Assembly: GCA_029880265.1 (NCBI GenBank)
Contig: JAOUOT010000015.1
Span: 1 to 64,000 of the forward strand
Source: Spirochaetia bacterium
GTDB lineage: Bacteria; Spirochaetota; Leptospiria; Turneriellales; JAOUOS01
Reading direction: 5' to 3'
DNA length: 64,000 bases
Positions within the stretch are counted from its first letter, which is position 1. The number at the start of each line of letters is the position of its first letter. Below, piece after piece: positions 54,793 to 63,479 of this stretch. Position numbers and translations under genes: made by a program. The notes under the pieces were generated by a model. It was given only the letters and a program-made list of their open reading frames with translations, ran no database searches and was not told the origin of the DNA.

Positions 54793-56298
54793 TTATAAGT
54801 TCATATAAAACTCTGTTAATGCTTTTTTATCAATTTTATGATTATTGCTATACGGGAACTTCTCAACTATGACAATATCTGTCGGTATCATATATTCAGG
54901 TAATTTTTTACCCAGTTTCATTTTAATTATATTAAGAATTTCTTTATATTCTTCATTAATATTATTTCGTAAAATTATAAATGCAACAATTTTAGTCACT
55001 TTCATATTTCTGCACAAAGGAACGGCAATAGCATCCTTTATTTCTTCAATTTGCAGCATAGAATTATTTATATCGCCAACCTCTATTCGAAAACCATTCA
55101 GCTTTATTTGCTCATCTTTTCTGCCAACAAAATATAAAATATTACCTTTTAAAAACCCAAAGTCTCCGGTCTTAAAGCAACGCTTATTTTCTTTTATATA
55201 AAATTTTTCTTTATTTAATTTCTCGTTATTAAAATATCCAATACTGACATGATCTCCTATAATTTCAATTTCTCCTATCTCTTTGCCATTTTCATTTTGA
55301 ACATTAATTAAGTTTATTTTCTTTTCTTTATCTATCATACCGATTGGCAAAGAGGGTTCATTATTGATGATATCTTGAGTAATTTCGATCATAGTCGTAC
55401 ATACGGTAGCTTCTGTAGGTCCGTATGCATTTATTATTCTACTATTAGAAAAATTATTTTTTATATTTTGAGTTATTTTATTCGGAAGAATCTCTCCGCA
55501 AAAAAAGAAAATTTGCAATACTGGCAATTCCCTTTCATTAAAATCTCTACTTAAAAGCATTTTAGAAATAAAGGATGGCGTTGAAACCCATATTGAACAA
55601 TCATATGCCTTTACTCTTTCAATAAACATATCAGCTTTTTCTGCAGTATTCCTATCAACCATAACTAATGAGCCGCCAAAATGCAAAAAACTCATAAGTT
55701 CAAATACTGACAAATCAAAACTAAATGGCGCCTGATTCATAAAAACCGGTTTTGAAGGCAAATTATAATCTTTTTCAATCCAGGATAAGAAGTTAATAAT
55801 TGATTTTCTGGTGATTTGAACCCCCTTCGGTTCGCCTGTACTGCCCGAAGTGAATATTATATAAACAATAGGGTCATCACTATAATAGTATTTTTCAGCA
55901 AAAACTGACGATTGTTGTATCTTAATTCCCTCTTGATAAACAATAACCGAGAAATTTGAATTTTCAATTTCTAAAGTTGATATTAATATCTCAGAACCGG
56001 TTATTTTTCTTATTTTTTCGATTCTCTCTAACGGAACATTGGTATCGAGAGGAACATAAGGCAATTCTAAGCGAATACACGCAATAATCGCAACAACATA
56101 GAACGACTCTTTATGGCCATATATGATTACCGGATGCCCTTTCGGTAAATTCATCTCTTCTAATCTTTTGCATAAACTTTCAACATTTTCTTTTAAAAAC
56201 TTCCAGCTTAAGTCAATATCTGAGCCCGAAATTGATATTCGTTCGTTATTATAGTTTATTATTTCTTCAAAGTTATTTGTTAAAAAATTATATCTCAT
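54793..56298 (-). CDS. dltA: D-alanine--carrier protein ligase, DltA-like
   Basis: This 501-residue adenylation-domain enzyme activates an amino acid with ATP and loads it on DltC. Core motifs are intact: FTSGSTGEPKG (A3), NAYGPTEAT (A5), KTGDFGF (A7), GRKDEQIKLNGFRIE (A8) and the catalytic Lys near NHKIDKKAL (A10). The FFFCGEILP segment carries the Cys that in characterised DltA favours D-alanine, so D-Ala is the likely substrate. It ends the operon, 6 bases after dltB. Composition is AT-rich compared with the flanking genes. Confidence 0.85.
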   Translation of the reverse strand: MRYNFLTNNFEEIINYNNERISISGSDIDLSWKFLKENVESLCKRLEEMNLPKGHPVIIYGHKESFYVVAIIACIRLELPYVPLDTNVPLERIEKIRKITGSEILISTLEIENSNFSVIVYQEGIKIQQSSVFAEKYYYSDDPIVYIIFTSGSTGEPKGVQITRKSIINFLSWIEKDYNLPSKPVFMNQAPFSFDLSVFELMSFLHFGGSLVMVDRNTAEKADMFIERVKAYDCSIWVSTPSFISKMLLSRDFNERELPVLQIFFFCGEILPNKITQNIKNNFSNSRIINAYGPTEATVCTTMIEITQDIINNEPSLPIGMIDKEKKINLINVQNENGKEIGEIEIIGDHVSIGYFNNEKLNKEKFYIKENKRCFKTGDFGFLKGNILYFVGRKDEQIKLNGFRIEVGDINNSMLQIEEIKDAIAVPLCRNMKVTKIVAFIILRNNINEEYKEILNIIKMKLGKKLPEYMIPTDIVIVEKFPYSNNHKIDKKALTEFYMNL

Positions 56299-56304
56299 AA
56301 TTTA

Positions 56305-57573
56305 TTAAAATCCTAAATTCATTAATATTTTATTATCTATATCTTTAAGATATGGAACCTTGGCGCTGAAAACATAGAGAGCCAGAACAACAAAATTTAT
56401 TAATATAAAAGCAGATAATACTCCGGTTATCTTAGGTGAATTAAATAAACTGTCTTTGCCTTTTATCCCTAAATAATAACGATAGCTGTTATGAACCGCA
56501 GAATAAATTCCAAACATAAAACCACTTAAAATAAAATGAAATTTTATACCATTCCACATTCCCATCAATAAAAATGTTATTATCAAAGATATATTTTGTA
56601 ATGACAATCGATATTTTCTAAGTTTTTTAAATTTATACAAATACATATAAATGGGTTTAAAGAAATAATCTTTAAGCCACGAACCTAATGTTATATGAAA
56701 CCTTCGCCAAAATTCCTGGGGATTTTTCGAAAGAAAAGGATAATTAAAATTTTCAGGTATATTTATTCCTATCATTTTCGCCGACCCGATTGCCATTGAT
56801 GAATAACCGGCAAAATCAAAATAAAAATATATAGAATATCCATACATCATCGAAATCATATCTTTTAAATTTGTACTGTTCTCATCAATATTTTTTATCC
56901 AAAAATCATCAATCATTTTAGCAATAATAAATTTTTGCAGCACGCCAATCAATAAAATACGCCAGCCTGATAAAATGTTATCTGTAGATATCTGGTCGTA
57001 TCCATTTTCAATATTATTCGCAAACCGATATGACCGATCAATTGGCCCCGCTAACAAAGTAGGCGGGAAAAGCAGAAAAGAAACAAAATCTATAATATTC
57101 ATCTCGGGATTATGCTGGCTGTCAATAATCAATTGAACCGTACGAAAAGTAATATATGACAAACCTATAAATGTGATTAATGGAATTAATATATAGAACT
57201 TTACTAATACCATTGGCAGAGCGACTAAAAGTATCCCCAAAATATTTATTATTTTCTTAGGTAAAACTAAATACTTATAAATAAAATAAATATAGACTAT
57301 AAATAATAAAGCATGAATCGGCTGAGGAAATAATATAATGATATACAAAAGGGTTAAAAAAAATATTAATTTACTATATGAAATAAATTTCTTGAAATAT
57401 TTTTTAATCAAAACTACGCCAACAGTTACTAGAATTATTATGATAAAATATTTCAATTCAGTAAAAGGTAAAATATTTCGGGAAATCTTATTTGAAAGAT
57501 TATTCTCAAAATTGTTGATATATAAACTGAACTGTTCTATTAATTTCAGAAGAGTCAATGATTTTACCTCCAT
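56305..57573 (-). CDS. dltB: MBOAT acyltransferase, DltB-like, with altered catalytic motif
   Basis: This polytopic protein of about 11 helices has the MBOAT signature NPQEFWRRFHITLG. His293 matches one conserved His, but the segment normally reading GxWHG is GMWNG: Asn341 (codon 56551-56553) replaces the His considered catalytic in DltB. The second WHG-like His is also absent (GFMFG). It should pass D-alanine from DltC across the membrane. Start is uncertain: ATG 57573 is shown, but GGAGG at 57567-57571 is ideally placed for TTG 57558. Both starts lie inside dltX. Confidence 0.82.
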   Translation of the reverse strand: MEVKSLTLLKLIEQFSLYINNFENNLSNKISRNILPFTELKYFIIIILVTVGVVLIKKYFKKFISYSKLIFFLTLLYIIILFPQPIHALLFIVYIYFIYKYLVLPKKIINILGILLVALPMVLVKFYILIPLITFIGLSYITFRTVQLIIDSQHNPEMNIIDFVSFLLFPPTLLAGPIDRSYRFANNIENGYDQISTDNILSGWRILLIGVLQKFIIAKMIDDFWIKNIDENSTNLKDMISMMYGYSIYFYFDFAGYSSMAIGSAKMIGINIPENFNYPFLSKNPQEFWRRFHITLGSWLKDYFFKPIYMYLYKFKKLRKYRLSLQNISLIITFLLMGMWNGIKFHFILSGFMFGIYSAVHNSYRYYLGIKGKDSLFNSPKITGVLSAFILINFVVLALYVFSAKVPYLKDIDNKILMNLGF

Positions 57574-57649
57574 ATAGCATTGGCATAAACAAGAGTAAGA
57601 TCAGATATAAAATAATATCAAGTATAAATACTAAGATTTTGTTTCTCAT
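57506..57649 (-). CDS. dltX: DltX-like membrane microprotein (47 residues)
   Basis: This gene fills the gap between dltD and dltB. It encodes one membrane helix (about residues 5-26) and an extracytoplasmic tail that ends QFIYQQF-stop. The C-terminal FIYxxF motif is the hallmark of DltX (FIYNEF in Gram-positives), where the tail, including its Tyr, works with DltB and DltD in D-alanine transfer. It begins 17 bases after the dltD stop and overlaps dltB in another frame, so translation is probably coupled. Shine-Dalgarno is weak. Confidence 0.75.
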   Translation of the reverse strand: MRNKILVFILDIILYLILLLFMPMLYGGKIIDSSEINRTVQFIYQQF

Positions 57650-57666: not shown

Positions 57667-58830
57667 CTAATTATTATGTATAAAGCGTTTATATATTTCT
57701 TTATTCACTTTAGCCCATCCATATTCTCCGGGATGCATAAGGTCAGTTAAAACTCCTATTTCGATTTCTCCCTCATTCATCCATAAATCTAACAGCTCAA
57801 AATTTTCTTGTTTTAATTTTTTTCGAATTTTATTCAATACCTCATCATATCGATTCAGTTTTGCGTGCGCAGTCGGATGTATGGGCCATAGAACAAAAAG
57901 AGGTCTATTCTTAAAATTCTTTAATAAGTTGATAAGCATTTCAAAGTCATCATATTCTTGATTAAACAAGGGTAATCGCCTTACATGCTTTGGTAATCTT
58001 TCATACTTCATGTATTTTGTAAAATAGTCGTCATATATATAGTAATCATTATTTGTATATTTATTTATCTCTGCTATTTTTGCATTTTCTAAAATCTTTT
58101 CCCAGTCTATTTTTTTTCCCTCGTAAACAGAGTAGTCATGGGTTTCAATATCATGATTTTTTTTTAAATACTTAAAAAAATAAGCTAAATTTATTGAACC
58201 AATATTCTTTTTAAAAGAATACGCCATTGACAAGGGAGTAATATCCATTATTGTGTCATAACGTCGGTTAATATTAGAAATAATATAATTTTTAAATTCT
58301 TTTGGCGCTGAACTTTGATAGTACAAACGGTAAAACAATTCTGCATTAATATAATCAGTAAATCTTTTTATATTCGTACCTTCTGTATTAAACCATCCCG
58401 GCGATATTAAAAATACCAACCGCGCATTATTCAGCAATATCTCATTATAGAGAGAAGACAATTCTGCGAGCATTATCAGACTTTGGTGCCCTCCGCCTCC
58501 TATAGCGTTTACGGGAATTCCTAATTCTTTATTGAAAAAAATATGTGGATTATTACCGAGAGAACTTGCCAGTTCAGAAGACCCGAATATAGTAATCTTA
58601 CCGGACAACAAGGCCTTTTCGAGTTTTAAATATGATCTTTTCTTATCTGATAAATCATACAAATATTGAAAATCGGAGATTTTTCCTATATCTTCATAAG
58701 TATTTTTTTCTTTAGAATAAATATTTATATATGCAAAATTGTATTTTTCTAAAAATTTATTTATGCCGGCAGAAAATATTACAGCTATTGCCAATGCAAC
58801 AACATGCAGCATAAAATTAGTTTTTTTCAT
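57667..58830 (-). CDS. dltD: DltD-like SGNH-type acyl transfer protein
   Basis: This 387-residue protein has an N-terminal membrane anchor (about 7-25) and an extracytoplasmic SGNH-hydrolase-like domain. The Ser nucleophile lies in FGSSEL and the Asp/His pair in TDLMHPGEYGW, as in DltD, so the triad is intact. In Gram-positives DltD moves D-alanine to lipoteichoic acid on the outer face of the membrane. It overlaps dltC by 14 bases. Confidence 0.84.
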   Translation of the reverse strand: MKKTNFMLHVVALAIAVIFSAGINKFLEKYNFAYINIYSKEKNTYEDIGKISDFQYLYDLSDKKRSYLKLEKALLSGKITIFGSSELASSLGNNPHIFFNKELGIPVNAIGGGGHQSLIMLAELSSLYNEILLNNARLVFLISPGWFNTEGTNIKRFTDYINAELFYRLYYQSSAPKEFKNYIISNINRRYDTIMDITPLSMAYSFKKNIGSINLAYFFKYLKKNHDIETHDYSVYEGKKIDWEKILENAKIAEINKYTNNDYYIYDDYFTKYMKYERLPKHVRRLPLFNQEYDDFEMLINLLKNFKNRPLFVLWPIHPTAHAKLNRYDEVLNKIRKKLKQENFELLDLWMNEGEIEIGVLTDLMHPGEYGWAKVNKEIYKRFIHNN

Positions 58831-59056
58831 TTAATCGTTTTGAAATAAAATCAGAAATTTTTTCAATTGTATCAAAACTTTCAACTGTTATCTCGGTAGC
58901 GTCTATTTTTATCTTAAAAGCTTCTTCGATATTAACAGCAAGTTCAACCATATCAATTGAGCTAAGAAGATTATTCGATAATAATGGCTGATCAGCATTA
59001 ACATTTCGCATAACAATTTCTTTAACTAATTGAACAATTTTTTCTTGTATATCCAT
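58817..59056 (-). CDS. dltC: D-alanyl carrier protein, DltC-like
   Basis: This 79-residue acyl-carrier-type four-helix protein has Ser33 in LLSSIDMVEL at the phosphopantetheine attachment site; the usual preceding Asp is Ser32. It would carry the thioester-bound D-alanine from DltA to DltB. It is the first gene of the operon, with AGGA upstream of the ATG. The region 59057-59237 separates it from a divergent lipoprotein and shows no convincing promoter to my eye. Confidence 0.83.
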   Translation of the reverse strand: MDIQEKIVQLVKEIVMRNVNADQPLLSNNLLSSIDMVELAVNIEEAFKIKIDATEITVESFDTIEKISDFISKRLNEKN

Positions 59057-59237: not shown

Positions 59238-62200
59238 ATGAAACAGAATTCTAAACTTAAGACTTTTTTAATAATCTCGGCGACTTTCATATTGCTTAAT
59301 TGCAACAACAATACGTTTGAGCTTTTATCAAGCGGTCAAATCGTAAAAACGGCTGATAACATCCCTTCAATTATATCGATAACAACGTCAACGCCAGACG
59401 GAACATACGGTTTAGGCGCCGTTATAAATATTACGGTAACCATGAATGAACCGGTTACGCTATCAAACGGAACTCTTGAGGCGACCCTAGATACCGGCGA
59501 TATCGTCTCTGTTTCGGGAACCTACCCTACAGATATCTTAACGGGAACTTATATCGTGGGCTTGTCTGATTTTTCGACCGCCTTAGACGCTGTAAGCGTT
59601 GGCCTTTCAAACGGCGCGTCTCTTGAAGACGATACGGGAAACAACGCCGATTTAACAATGCCGTCTATTACAATAGCCTCAAACAGTTTTATCGTTATAG
59701 ATACCGCTTCGCCTTCTGTTCTTTCGGTAACTTCGTCAACGGCAGACGGGTCTTATAAAGAAGGCGCATCAGTAAATGTTACGGTTACCATGAGCGCACA
59801 GGTTATCTTATCAGGAGGAACTCTTGACGTGACGCTAGATACAGGCGACGTGATCTCTGTTTCAGGAAGCTATCCCGCCGATATATTAACCGGAAGCTAT
59901 ATTGTTGGCGCAGGCGATACCTCTCTAGCTTTAGATTCTACCACAATTTCATTAAACGGGGGCACCTTAAAAGACAGCCTCGGAAACAACGCTAATTTAA
60001 CAATGCCCGCGACAACAATCGCAACAACAAGCGCTATTGTCATTGATACATCTGCCCCGGCGATTATTTCAGCGCAGACATTAGACGCCGATCATAACGG
60101 CTTTGTCGATCATTACAAAATTACTTTTTCTGAAAATGTTCAAGATTCAACATTCCCCGGATATATCGCCAACGCGCAGGGAACCATTACAACCGACTGG
60201 CTTATAGCCGGTTATACAAACGTAAAACTGGCCCATGGAACAGCCGCCCCTGAGGTTGATAATACAGACGACAATGTCATTTATATTATTTTTACCGAAG
60301 CCGCATCAGAAGACACCGGCTTAAAACCCGATTTAACGACAAGCGCGCTACCCGGCTTACAAGATATCGCCGGCAATAGTATCTCTCAATTAACGACAGT
60401 CAGCGTTACAGAAACCGACGGCGCGATACCGGTTGTAGCATTTGCCGAAGGTACAAGCAATACATCGGTCGAGGTTACATTTTCTGAACCTGTTCAGGCG
60501 GCTGACGCCGAAATTGCCGTTAATTATACCGTTACGGGCGACGGAGGATTAACCGTCTCTAACGCTGTCATGTCGGGAGGATCCGGCGTTGACGGCAAGA
60601 AAGTCGTTCTTACAACATTTTCGCAGACGGTGGGCATAAACAACTATACCGTAACCGTAACAGAGGGGGCCGTTAAAGATTTAGCGAATAACGGCGTTTT
60701 AACAGGCTTTAGCAGCGCGTTATTTTCGGGACAGCCTGAAGTACTTCGTCTTTCTTCGGCTTCGGGCATAAATAACACAACCGTATACATAACATTTTCT
60801 GCGGCAGTAAAGGCCCCAGACGCCGAATGCTCAAGCGCAGTCGCCTGCGACGGGGTAATTTACTCTATAGCCGGTTTAACGGTACAAAACGCGGCCATGG
60901 CAGGCGGCCCGGGCATTGACGGAACAACAGTCGTCTTGACCACGTCGCAGCAGTTAAACAGCGCCGTTAACGGATATACCATTACGGTAACAGGCGGAAT
61001 AATAAGAGATTCAGCCACAGGCACAGTTACCTGCGACGGCCCCGATAATACCGCTTCTTTCACGGGAGATAAACTGCCTTCTATAATTTCGGCCTCGTCT
61101 ATTGACGCAACGCATGTAAATGTTACATTTTCAGAACCCGTCACCTGGGATGCAAGCGCAACGGGGGCTCTTCTTGAAACAAATTACGCGATAGACAACG
61201 GCTTAACAGTATCATCGTCTACGTCGCAAACTCCTACAACGGTTGTTCAGCTAACCACTTTGTCGCAGACAGCCTCAACTTTGTATACCGTTACCGTCTC
61301 GAATATAACCGATACAACGGGCAACACAATAAACCCCGCGGCAAATACGGCGACATTTCTGGGGCTTGAAAATATAAAGGTTTTAAGCATGGCAGAAATT
61401 ATCGCAAATACGGCGACAACCTTTAGAATCTTAGAAACTACCTTTTCAAAAGAATTCATAACCGACGGCGGCGCAAACGCAGTAAATAATCTGTTAAACT
61501 GGAAAGCCCCCGCCGGCGCGAATATACTGGGCGTCTGTACATCGGTAGACGATACCGCCTGCCCGGTAAGCGGTTATTCAAACGGCAATACAATAATTTA
61601 CTTTAAGGTAGACGACGGTTTAGGATCCCCTCCGGTTCAAGGCGCATATACCTTTGTCGCCTCGGGCTGGGACGGAGCCGCTTACACTGTAGCAGGCGCC
61701 CCGGGCTGTATTCTTCCTAACGGCGGGGCCGAATACGGCGATTGTCTGCAGTCAAACCCTAACGATCGCGCCAGTGTAGAATTTGGCGCTTTGCCCACCA
61801 ACCCCGGCGACGGCCCGGTTTACTCTGACCCTTTTAACGACGGCGTTACGCTTTCGGGTCTGGTATTTACCTATAACGGCAAGCTAATGATAGGGCCAAA
61901 CGATACCGATTCGGGAATTTTTCAGGTAGACGTCGATATGCTTAACTCGCAGACAATCACTCTTGACGCCGATAATGTTACAGCGGGCAACCAAGCCTTC
62001 GCGCCGCCTCTTCTAGAAGACCCTACTGGCAACATTCTGGCCGGCATCGATTACTTTTACGCGGGATGCTACAGCGACACATTGAACCTTGATTCAACCC
62101 TTACGGGAACAGATTGTTCAACGGCAGGCGGATCAGAATACTTGTTTACCCTTGGCTACAATACCGATAACGCGGGCGGTTCTGTCGGTTATAATTCAAA

Positions 62201-63479
62201 CTGGAACACCACAAATATCACGTCGCCTTTTGTTTTTAACCACATCACAGGCTTATCAAGCAACGTAACCAGAACCTTCAGAGCAATGAGCATTGTCATC
62301 TTCAAAGGATGGATCTACCAGGCCTCGCAGCATCAGGCGGGCACTCGCGCCGTAAGATGGAACCGCTTTCTGCCCGACGGGTCAAGCAAACCCGATTTAA
62401 GAGGAGACCGTCTAAACAGAATAGGAGAAGGCGGCACAATACCAAACGGGCAGGGAGCCAAGATTATAGGCCTAATATCTATAGACAGCATGTATGAATA
62501 TGACAATGACGGAGCGGGTTCAAACGAATCTCAGCTTTATATCGCCAACGGCGGCTCATGCCTTGAAGCGGGCGGCGGCCTTCCCGGAGGCTCTGACGAC
62601 TGCTTAACCGATCAGGTAAGAAACGGTACAACAGATTCAGACGGAGGCATCTTGCGAACAAATTTAACCTATTCGACTTTTGCCAACCCGCCCCTTACAT
62701 GCACATCGACAGCTCATTGCGACAGCATGTGGGACGACGTAACGCCGAATCACTCAAACTGGCTTAAATTTATGTCAATAGCTCTGCCCGATGACGCGAC
62801 AGCGGGGGGCGACTGGGACGCTCTTGTACCCGCCAATACAATCACGCCCGCTATTAAGGCCATACCCTATATGGTTTCTTTTAACGGCGATATGTATATC
62901 ATTCGAAACGCCTGCTCGAGCGTATATACCCACACTGTCGCGACGGGAGATTTTATCTCTAACGGCCGAAAAACCTGCACCGCCGGCAACGAAGTTCCGC
63001 AATTATGGAAGCTTCCCGCCGGAACGACAGCGTCTCCTAAAGGGTCTTCTGACTGGGCCTTTATAGGCAATGTTACAAACGGCAAAACAACCATGGCAGG
63101 GGCCGACTGGTCAGATACGATAAACCATCCGTCATATGCCGACAATAATACTGAAATCACACTTTTAGCGGTGGTAGGCGACAGACTTTATGTCGGCTTT
63201 GACAACGCGGTAAACGGCGTTAATATATGGCGAAGCAAAAACGGCATTACAAGCCCCGCCGGAGAATCTGACTTTGAAGCTATCTGCGATACCAATCTGG
63301 CCTGCTCAGATATGGCCAAGCAATTCGGATTCGGCACCATAGGCGACGCGAGCTCTACAAACGACATTAAACGTCTGTTTGACAAAACTGAAGTTACCGA
63401 CGCGGGAGTCGACTATCTGGTATTTACCGCCGGCGACGGGGTAAATCCCGTAAAGGTTTACCGCTCGACCAACGATTAA
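59238..63479 (+). CDS. Very large surface lipoprotein with repeated Ig-like/SwmB-like beta domains
   Basis: A signal peptide ends ILLNC (Cys22). At least six beta-sandwich units follow (about residues 45-725), each with the SEPV/TFSEPV-type 'functionally opposed sign' pattern of SwmB/Big-like domains. The first two (about 45-155 and 158-270) are close duplicates, sharing ATLDTGD/DVTLDTGD and NNADLTMP/NNANLTMP. Residues 730-1413 form a distinct, Cys-containing region that looks like a beta-propeller or lectin-like fold. AAAGGAG precedes the ATG. It is probably an exposed adhesin or binding protein; the ligand is unknown. Confidence 0.85.
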   Translation: MKQNSKLKTFLIISATFILLNCNNNTFELLSSGQIVKTADNIPSIISITTSTPDGTYGLGAVINITVTMNEPVTLSNGTLEATLDTGDIVSVSGTYPTDILTGTYIVGLSDFSTALDAVSVGLSNGASLEDDTGNNADLTMPSITIASNSFIVIDTASPSVLSVTSSTADGSYKEGASVNVTVTMSAQVILSGGTLDVTLDTGDVISVSGSYPADILTGSYIVGAGDTSLALDSTTISLNGGTLKDSLGNNANLTMPATTIATTSAIVIDTSAPAIISAQTLDADHNGFVDHYKITFSENVQDSTFPGYIANAQGTITTDWLIAGYTNVKLAHGTAAPEVDNTDDNVIYIIFTEAASEDTGLKPDLTTSALPGLQDIAGNSISQLTTVSVTETDGAIPVVAFAEGTSNTSVEVTFSEPVQAADAEIAVNYTVTGDGGLTVSNAVMSGGSGVDGKKVVLTTFSQTVGINNYTVTVTEGAVKDLANNGVLTGFSSALFSGQPEVLRLSSASGINNTTVYITFSAAVKAPDAECSSAVACDGVIYSIAGLTVQNAAMAGGPGIDGTTVVLTTSQQLNSAVNGYTITVTGGIIRDSATGTVTCDGPDNTASFTGDKLPSIISASSIDATHVNVTFSEPVTWDASATGALLETNYAIDNGLTVSSSTSQTPTTVVQLTTLSQTASTLYTVTVSNITDTTGNTINPAANTATFLGLENIKVLSMAEIIANTATTFRILETTFSKEFITDGGANAVNNLLNWKAPAGANILGVCTSVDDTACPVSGYSNGNTIIYFKVDDGLGSPPVQGAYTFVASGWDGAAYTVAGAPGCILPNGGAEYGDCLQSNPNDRASVEFGALPTNPGDGPVYSDPFNDGVTLSGLVFTYNGKLMIGPNDTDSGIFQVDVDMLNSQTITLDADNVTAGNQAFAPPLLEDPTGNILAGIDYFYAGCYSDTLNLDSTLTGTDCSTAGGSEYLFTLGYNTDNAGGSVGYNSNWNTTNITSPFVFNHITGLSSNVTRTFRAMSIVIFKGWIYQASQHQAGTRAVRWNRFLPDGSSKPDLRGDRLNRIGEGGTIPNGQGAKIIGLISIDSMYEYDNDGAGSNESQLYIANGGSCLEAGGGLPGGSDDCLTDQVRNGTTDSDGGILRTNLTYSTFANPPLTCTSTAHCDSMWDDVTPNHSNWLKFMSIALPDDATAGGDWDALVPANTITPAIKAIPYMVSFNGDMYIIRNACSSVYTHTVATGDFISNGRKTCTAGNEVPQLWKLPAGTTASPKGSSDWAFIGNVTNGKTTMAGADWSDTINHPSYADNNTEITLLAVVGDRLYVGFDNAVNGVNIWRSKNGITSPAGESDFEAICDTNLACSDMAKQFGFGTIGDASSTNDIKRLFDKTEVTDAGVDYLVFTAGDGVNPVKVYRSTND

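Follow-up and report, generated by a model that had tools for sequence, protein, structure and literature searches.

The window, by which we mean the whole stretch of 64,000 nucleotides analysed here, carries on its minus strand a compact operon with the gene order dltC-dltD-dltX-dltB-dltA. The third gene in this order is a short frame lying between dltD and dltB, which had originally been predicted to encode a hidden DltX-like microprotein. The genes and the features within them are as follows.

54793-56298, minus strand: dltA, a D-alanine carrier-protein ligase-like adenylation enzyme of 501 aa
56305-57573, minus strand: dltB, an MBOAT of 422 aa if read from ATG 57573; the likelier start is TTG 57558
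56551-56553, minus strand: Asn341 codon (AAT) of DltB, which aligns with the catalytic His336 of Streptococcus thermophilus (St) DltB
56695-56697, minus strand: His293 codon of DltB, equivalent to St His289 and invariant in both clades
57506-57649, minus strand: dltX, a single-pass microprotein of 47 aa (47 codons, span including the stop)
57509-57526, minus strand: FIYQQF hexapeptide of DltX by direct reading, with the proposed acyl-accepting Tyr44 codon at 57518-57520
57566-57571, minus strand: GGAGGT, a Shine-Dalgarno-like sequence for dltB by direct reading, inside dltX and preceding TTG 57558
57572-57637, minus strand: transmembrane segment of DltX (about residues 5-26), from hydropathy and a predicted helix 2-30
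57667-58830, minus strand: dltD, an SGNH transferase of 387 aa (Pfam DltD, 177.6 bits, E 5.9e-52)
58817-59056, minus strand: dltC, a D-alanyl/acyl carrier protein of 79 aa with a candidate Ppant serine in LSSIDMVEL

DltD has the catalytic motifs FGSSEL (Ser) and DLMHPGEYGW (Asp/His) when aligned to the solved DltD proteins 3bma/6pfx. DltC scores E 1.6e-6 on the PP-binding model and E 1.9e-8, under the cut-off, on the NCBIfam DltC model NF003464. DltA reaches 462.3 bits on NF003417 against a cut-off of 476 (E 1.7e-138) and is closest to true DltA; relative to the solved DltA 3fcc/3dhv it preserves the Cys in FFFCGE as well as NQAPFSFDLSVF, so that in the alignment the Cys and the FSFDLS residues around the D-Ala pocket are retained, the substrate itself being predicted. 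DltB scores 257.8 bits on TIGR04091 (E 1.9e-76), below the equivalog cut-off of 375, and its predicted structure (pLDDT 91.5) finds its best PDB matches in DltB 8jem/6bug (TM 0.77-0.78), followed by HHAT and PORCN. All five dlt frames are unbroken, and their catalytic motifs are intact except for the clade-wide H336N and Y345S changes of DltB. The claim that the whole transfer chain has been kept holds with a qualification. DltA, DltC, DltD and DltX retain their key residues, whereas DltB, like its entire diderm clade, does not have the canonical catalytic His; the chain is present with a rebuilt DltB active site. Divergent to the operon, positions 59238-63479 of the window encode a putative lipoprotein of 1413 residues with SVTSSTADG-like repeat modules and 48% GC.

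The dltX frame and its counterparts in diderm relatives

Direct translation of 57506-57649 (minus strand) gives MRNKILVFILDIILYLILLLFMPMLYGGKIIDSSEINRTVQFIYQQF*, with an ATG start and the tail FIYQQF. The product has a single hydrophobic segment (Kyte-Doolittle maximum 2.86, residues 5-23), and its AlphaFold model shows a single helix spanning residues 2-30, followed by a tail of low confidence. Translation, hydropathy and model thus agree with the frame as first described, namely 47 codons between dltD and dltB, one membrane helix and an FIYxxF end. The N-terminal MRNK suggests that the N-terminus lies inside and the C-terminus outside. The overlap with dltB in another frame, also described at the outset, amounts to 68 nt when dltB is read from ATG 57573 and to 53 nt when it is read from TTG 57558. 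A weak spot, by direct reading, is the region upstream of the dltX ATG, where there is no strong ribosome-binding site; the base composition of the frame is 25% GC. From dinucleotide shuffles of the 400-nt dltD/dltB junction, 0.01 stop-terminated frames with an F[hydrophobic]YxxF tail would be expected, and one is observed. The window DltX reaches 10 bits on the Pfam DltX model PF12459 (E 0.64), short of the cut-off of 25, and matches none of the NCBIfam models. Its sole match among PDB sequences, a GPI mannosyltransferase, was dismissed as a chance match.

Comparison with relatives gives the frame its context. Every intact diderm dlt locus examined (L013-L040, L045, L111-L118 and L126-L132, from Bacteroidota, Bordetella/Alcaligenaceae, Enterobacterales and two enterobacterial plasmids) has a frame of 39-51 residues between dltD and dltB, which in most loci does not overlap dltB; in L015, dltC sits between dltD and dltX. 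These frames share the tail [F/Y]xY[Q/A][Q/K]F, which reads FVYQQF or FIYQQF in Bacteroidota (exceptions: FVYQKF in L021, FVYAQF in L024), FQYQQF in Bordetella, FEYQQF or FEYQKF in enterobacteria and YEYQQF in Photorhabdus. In an alignment of 25 diderm DltX sequences Tyr44 and Phe47 are invariant, and Phe42, Gln45, Gln46 and Tyr15 are conserved in at least 90%. The pooled pN/pS of diderm dltX in five groups of close relatives is 0.09, 0.25, 0.07, 0.22 and 0.38; purifying selection acts on these frames. Other small FxYxxF frames in the loci lie elsewhere, have no helix or no start, and were discarded. The original prediction had proposed a search for short FIYxxF frames at the same place in relatives, with loss of frame or tail beside a retained dltB and dltD counting against it. 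Such frames are present in every intact diderm dlt locus and, since frame and tail are found in all the diderm relatives examined that keep dltB and dltD, the DltX reading came through this test.

Existing models do not recover this group. The Pfam DltX cut-off is reached by none of the 25 diderm sequences (best E 7.5e-4), no diderm DltX was matched as DltX by NCBIfam, and a whole-genome search with the Pfam model did not return the diderm copies, so that this model appears to miss the diderm branch. Profile-profile alignment of the 25 diderm with 16 Gram-positive DltX sequences covers 35 columns with 95.7% probability and E 1e-8, a two-profile E-value that, both families being short and hydrophobic, serves as supporting evidence only. 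Because none passes the Pfam cut-off and none is matched by NCBIfam, the diderm frames are best filed, by context and motif, as an unmodelled and divergent DltX subfamily. The frame had also been called too short for ordinary gene calling, which is true in part: on the Klebsiella and Enterobacter plasmids the gene does carry an annotation, that of a 'hypothetical protein' of 40 aa. Taken together, the position, length and topology of the frame, its FxYxxF tail, its conservation in diderms, purifying selection and the profile-profile match bear out the proposed identity, and we consider it very probable that the frame at 57506-57649 encodes the DltX of a diderm-type Dlt operon.

Several Bordetella loci (L119-L125 and L136-L139; genomes G1117, G1118, G1120 and G1123) contain an additional dltD-like gene with another DltX-like frame after it (for example MKRFLRLYLLYLGLALTILLLCDTSANLGRPITVEFQYQQF). 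No dltB was detected near this gene in the fetched regions, which extend about 4.2-4.6 kb downstream, and in L137 the pair adjoins pheST, ihfA-like and merR-like genes. It is apparently an orphan DltD-DltX pair under purifying selection (pN/pS 0.22).

The DltB active site and the proposed acyl path

Alignment separates diderm from other DltBs at the catalytic centre. The position of St His336, in the WHG motif, is Asn in 27 of 27 diderm sequences (WNG) and His in all 49 others; that of St Tyr345 is likewise Ser in 27/27 and Tyr in 49/49, while at St His349 there is Phe in 25 of the 27 diderm sequences, the other DltBs having His or Gln. All 76 DltBs retain St His289. WNG also occurs in 15 further diderm loci, some of them near-duplicates. 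A maximum-likelihood tree of 85 DltBs splits 36 WNG from 49 WHG (Gram-positive-type) sequences with support 100/100, and groups the window DltB, on a long branch, with Bacteroidota (91/74); the direction of the His/Asn exchange is not established, as the tree is unrooted and the groups are connected by long branches. The possibility that Asn341 stems from a sequencing or assembly error was rejected, Asn being common to 35 other DltBs. As for outliers, L032, labelled Chryseobacterium sp. 18061, holds an enterobacterial dlt operon with its DltB beside Enterobacterales G1334 in the tree, and the contig is probably mislabelled or contaminated. A Verrucomicrobia genome (L091, L098) has a Gram-positive-type (WHG) DltB, and is thus a diderm with the other system type; another stretch of the same genome encodes, beside a dltA-like gene, a DltX that passes the Pfam cut-off and ends in FVYQEF.

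The MBOAT His equivalent to St His336 has been called invariant, with Asn, Asp or His as its partner on a re-entrant loop (PMC12979248), and the MBOATs in which it is described as invariant and essential include PatA (His315) and DltB (PMC12148441, PMC12979248). The inhibitor m-AMSA occupies a site in St DltB between His289 and His336, bonding to Tyr345 (PMC11035591); two of these three named residues differ in the diderm clade. We see an even chance that the diderm DltBs are active MBOATs without the 'invariant' His, their site rebuilt from the re-entrant-loop His (St His289) and the transmembrane-helix Asn (St 336), with a matched YQ[Q/K]F tail on DltX. HHAT, PORCN, DGAT1 and ACAT1 have an Asn/Asp plus His arrangement, and it is an evenly balanced question whether the diderm His plus Asn pair mirrors it. 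Judging from the alignment, an Asn-type DltB might use His293 as base and Asn341 as its partner. DltB His361 (window 56491-56493), which is His in 25 of the 27 diderm sequences and is not kept as His in Gram-positive-type DltBs, is a possible compensating residue. As the sole candidate for an invariant replacement of the catalytic His it was rejected, 25 of 27 not being invariant.

In the published path, DltB moves D-Ala from DltC to the Tyr of the DltX FxYxxF motif, and DltX passes it to the DltD Ser (PMC12148441). By analogy, D-alanine would be activated in the spirochaete by DltA and loaded onto DltC; the MBOAT DltB would carry the D-alanyl group over the inner membrane and place it on Tyr44 of DltX, whose FIYQQF tail would be periplasmic, and DltX would hand it to the catalytic serine of DltD. 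DltD would then esterify an envelope acceptor, likely LPS or another outer-membrane component, since a spirochaete would not be expected to have teichoic acid. That Tyr44 becomes acylated, which acyl group it receives and what the acceptor is are all inferred from this analogy.

Data on function come from two other diderms. Dickeya dadantii shows a 9-32 fold induction of dltBAC in aphids, and polymyxin kills 99% of the cells of a dltB insertion mutant (PMC3544676), a phenotype that could stem from polarity of the insertion on dltA and dltC. The Dickeya dltB primers of that paper match L126 on both sides of a WNG dltB with 2-3 mismatches and a spacing of about 1.68 kb (1.7 kb in the paper); it is these primer matches that link Dickeya to L126. 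PMC9858536, citing Taneja 2013, reports that the dra locus of Bordetella pertussis is needed for outer-membrane D-alanine. The Bordetella loci read here, none of which is assigned by name to B. pertussis, have a WNG DltB together with DltX.

These data bear on two rival readings, both of which we judge unlikely and to a similar degree. The first accepts a true DltX homologue and regards the diderm DltB as a non-acyltransferase scaffold or channel, with DltX merely joining DltB and DltD; it draws on the presence of Asn, across the diderm clade, in place of a His described as invariant and essential. However, the remainder of the active-site region is invariant, His289 included, the acyl-accepting Tyr of DltX and the catalytic motifs of DltD are conserved, and the Asn is uniform, as a functional residue would be, whereas loss would leave a mixture. 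Moreover, such operons affect polymyxin survival (Dickeya, PMC3544676) and outer-membrane D-Ala (Bordetella, PMC9858536). The second reading keeps the shuttle and replaces its cargo with another amino acid or small acyl group, so that this would not be a D-alanine system. DltA, DltB and DltC all fall under the NCBIfam equivalog cut-offs, the DltB active site is rebuilt, and glycine is moved by the related Gram-negative machinery Alm of Vibrio cholerae (as cited in PMC3783018). Against this, DltA aligns best with true DltA and retains the Cys and FSFDLS around the D-Ala pocket, and a related Bordetella locus is reported to add D-alanine (PMC9858536).

Origin of the operon in the spirochaete

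The window genome contains two FlaA genes over the Pfam cut-off, and the control genomes none; FlaA being a spirochaete-specific family, this identifies the genome as that of a spirochaete. No rRNA match was found in the assembly. A real DltD was found in one of 393 sampled genomes of the phylum, the window genome itself, and in none of 60 near relatives. The dlt operon genes have 25-30% GC against 42-48% in the adjacent genes measured. The nearest relative is G001, a genome of the same family; its ccmE and ccmF share 76-79% identity with those of the window, and the 13 kb beside them contains no dlt gene. Given the isolation of DltD in the phylum, the contrast in GC and the G001 ccmE/ccmF site without dlt genes, the operon was probably acquired horizontally. 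The closest DltBs are those of Bacteroidota (at most 46% identity), then of Bordetella/Alcaligenaceae and Enterobacterales, then of Bacillota, as found by scanning species genome contigs with a two-row DltB alignment (a single-sequence query matched nothing); a Bacteroidota-like donor is most likely. A plasmid search found a complete D-X-B-A-C dlt operon flanked by insertion sequences on Klebsiella electrica and Enterobacter cloacae plasmids (L013, L014), with identical protein accessions in both and DltX labelled as hypothetical protein.

A recent arrival could also be on its way out, that is, an operon decaying or silent after transfer and without function in this spirochaete; its isolation in the phylum, its unameliorated GC and the nearest relative without dlt genes beside ccmE/ccmF would fit. 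This is clearly less likely than either of the readings above, as the five frames are intact, the catalytic motifs are kept save for the clade-wide H336N and Y345S, and the window DltB, although on a long branch, has an unbroken frame. Finally, we dismiss as having next to no probability the idea that dltX arose by chance as an open frame in AT-rich DNA, or that it is the 5' region of dltB read in the wrong frame: its shortness, low GC, overlap with dltB, missing strong ribosome-binding site and sub-threshold Pfam score are outweighed by the chance control (0.01 expected per 400 nt), by counterparts, most of them clear of dltB, in all the intact diderm dlt loci, and by pN/pS values far under 1.

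Significance and comparison with known systems

The DltX descriptions in the literature searched concern Gram-positive bacteria only. That search, to which most subscription papers were outside scope so that an earlier report is possible, returned no report of DltX in diderm dlt operons and, under the same limit, none of the His-to-Asn exchange in DltB. A selected DltX in all the diderm dlt operons examined would supply these systems with their missing acyl carrier and a mechanism, and the clade-wide exchange in DltB challenges the view of the MBOAT His as 'invariant' and required. With the WNG and WHG DltBs, nature provides an experiment that could tell which of the two active-site residues performs the chemistry. 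They also bear on DltB inhibitors such as m-AMSA, given the two changed site residues in diderms.

The window DltX resembles Gram-positive DltX (PF12459; for example in S. aureus and B. thuringiensis) in having 40-55 residues, one helix, an N-terminus that is likely inside and a C-terminal FxYxxF, and in being encoded with dltABCD. The two differ in place, between dltD and dltB in diderms and usually before dltA in Gram-positives, and in the fourth motif residue, which is Gln in 24 of 25 diderm sequences and Asn, Thr, Ser or Ala in the Bacillota DltX found. The Bordetella dra genes and the dlt genes of Dickeya, Pectobacterium and Photorhabdus are other diderm dlt operons. In the Bordetella, Photorhabdus and enterobacterial loci read, as in the window, the DltB is of the WNG type and a DltX-like frame separates dltD from dltB, while the gene order is D-X-B-A-C in the enterobacterial plasmids and C-D-X-B-A in the window and most Bacteroidota.

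PatA/PatB and other MBOAT-SGNH pairs are alike in that the Tyr of a C-terminal FxYxxF hexapeptide receives the acyl group from the MBOAT and passes it to the SGNH protein (PMC12148441). Those pairs have the hexapeptide as part of the MBOAT itself, use acetyl-CoA as donor and keep the catalytic His, whereas the window encodes a carrier protein, places the motif on a separate microprotein and has Asn instead of the His. The window DltB shares with S. thermophilus DltB (6bug, 8jem) its fold and St His289, Trp335, Phe250 and Tyr253, and departs from it at His336 (Asn341), Tyr345 (Ser350) and His349 (Phe354).
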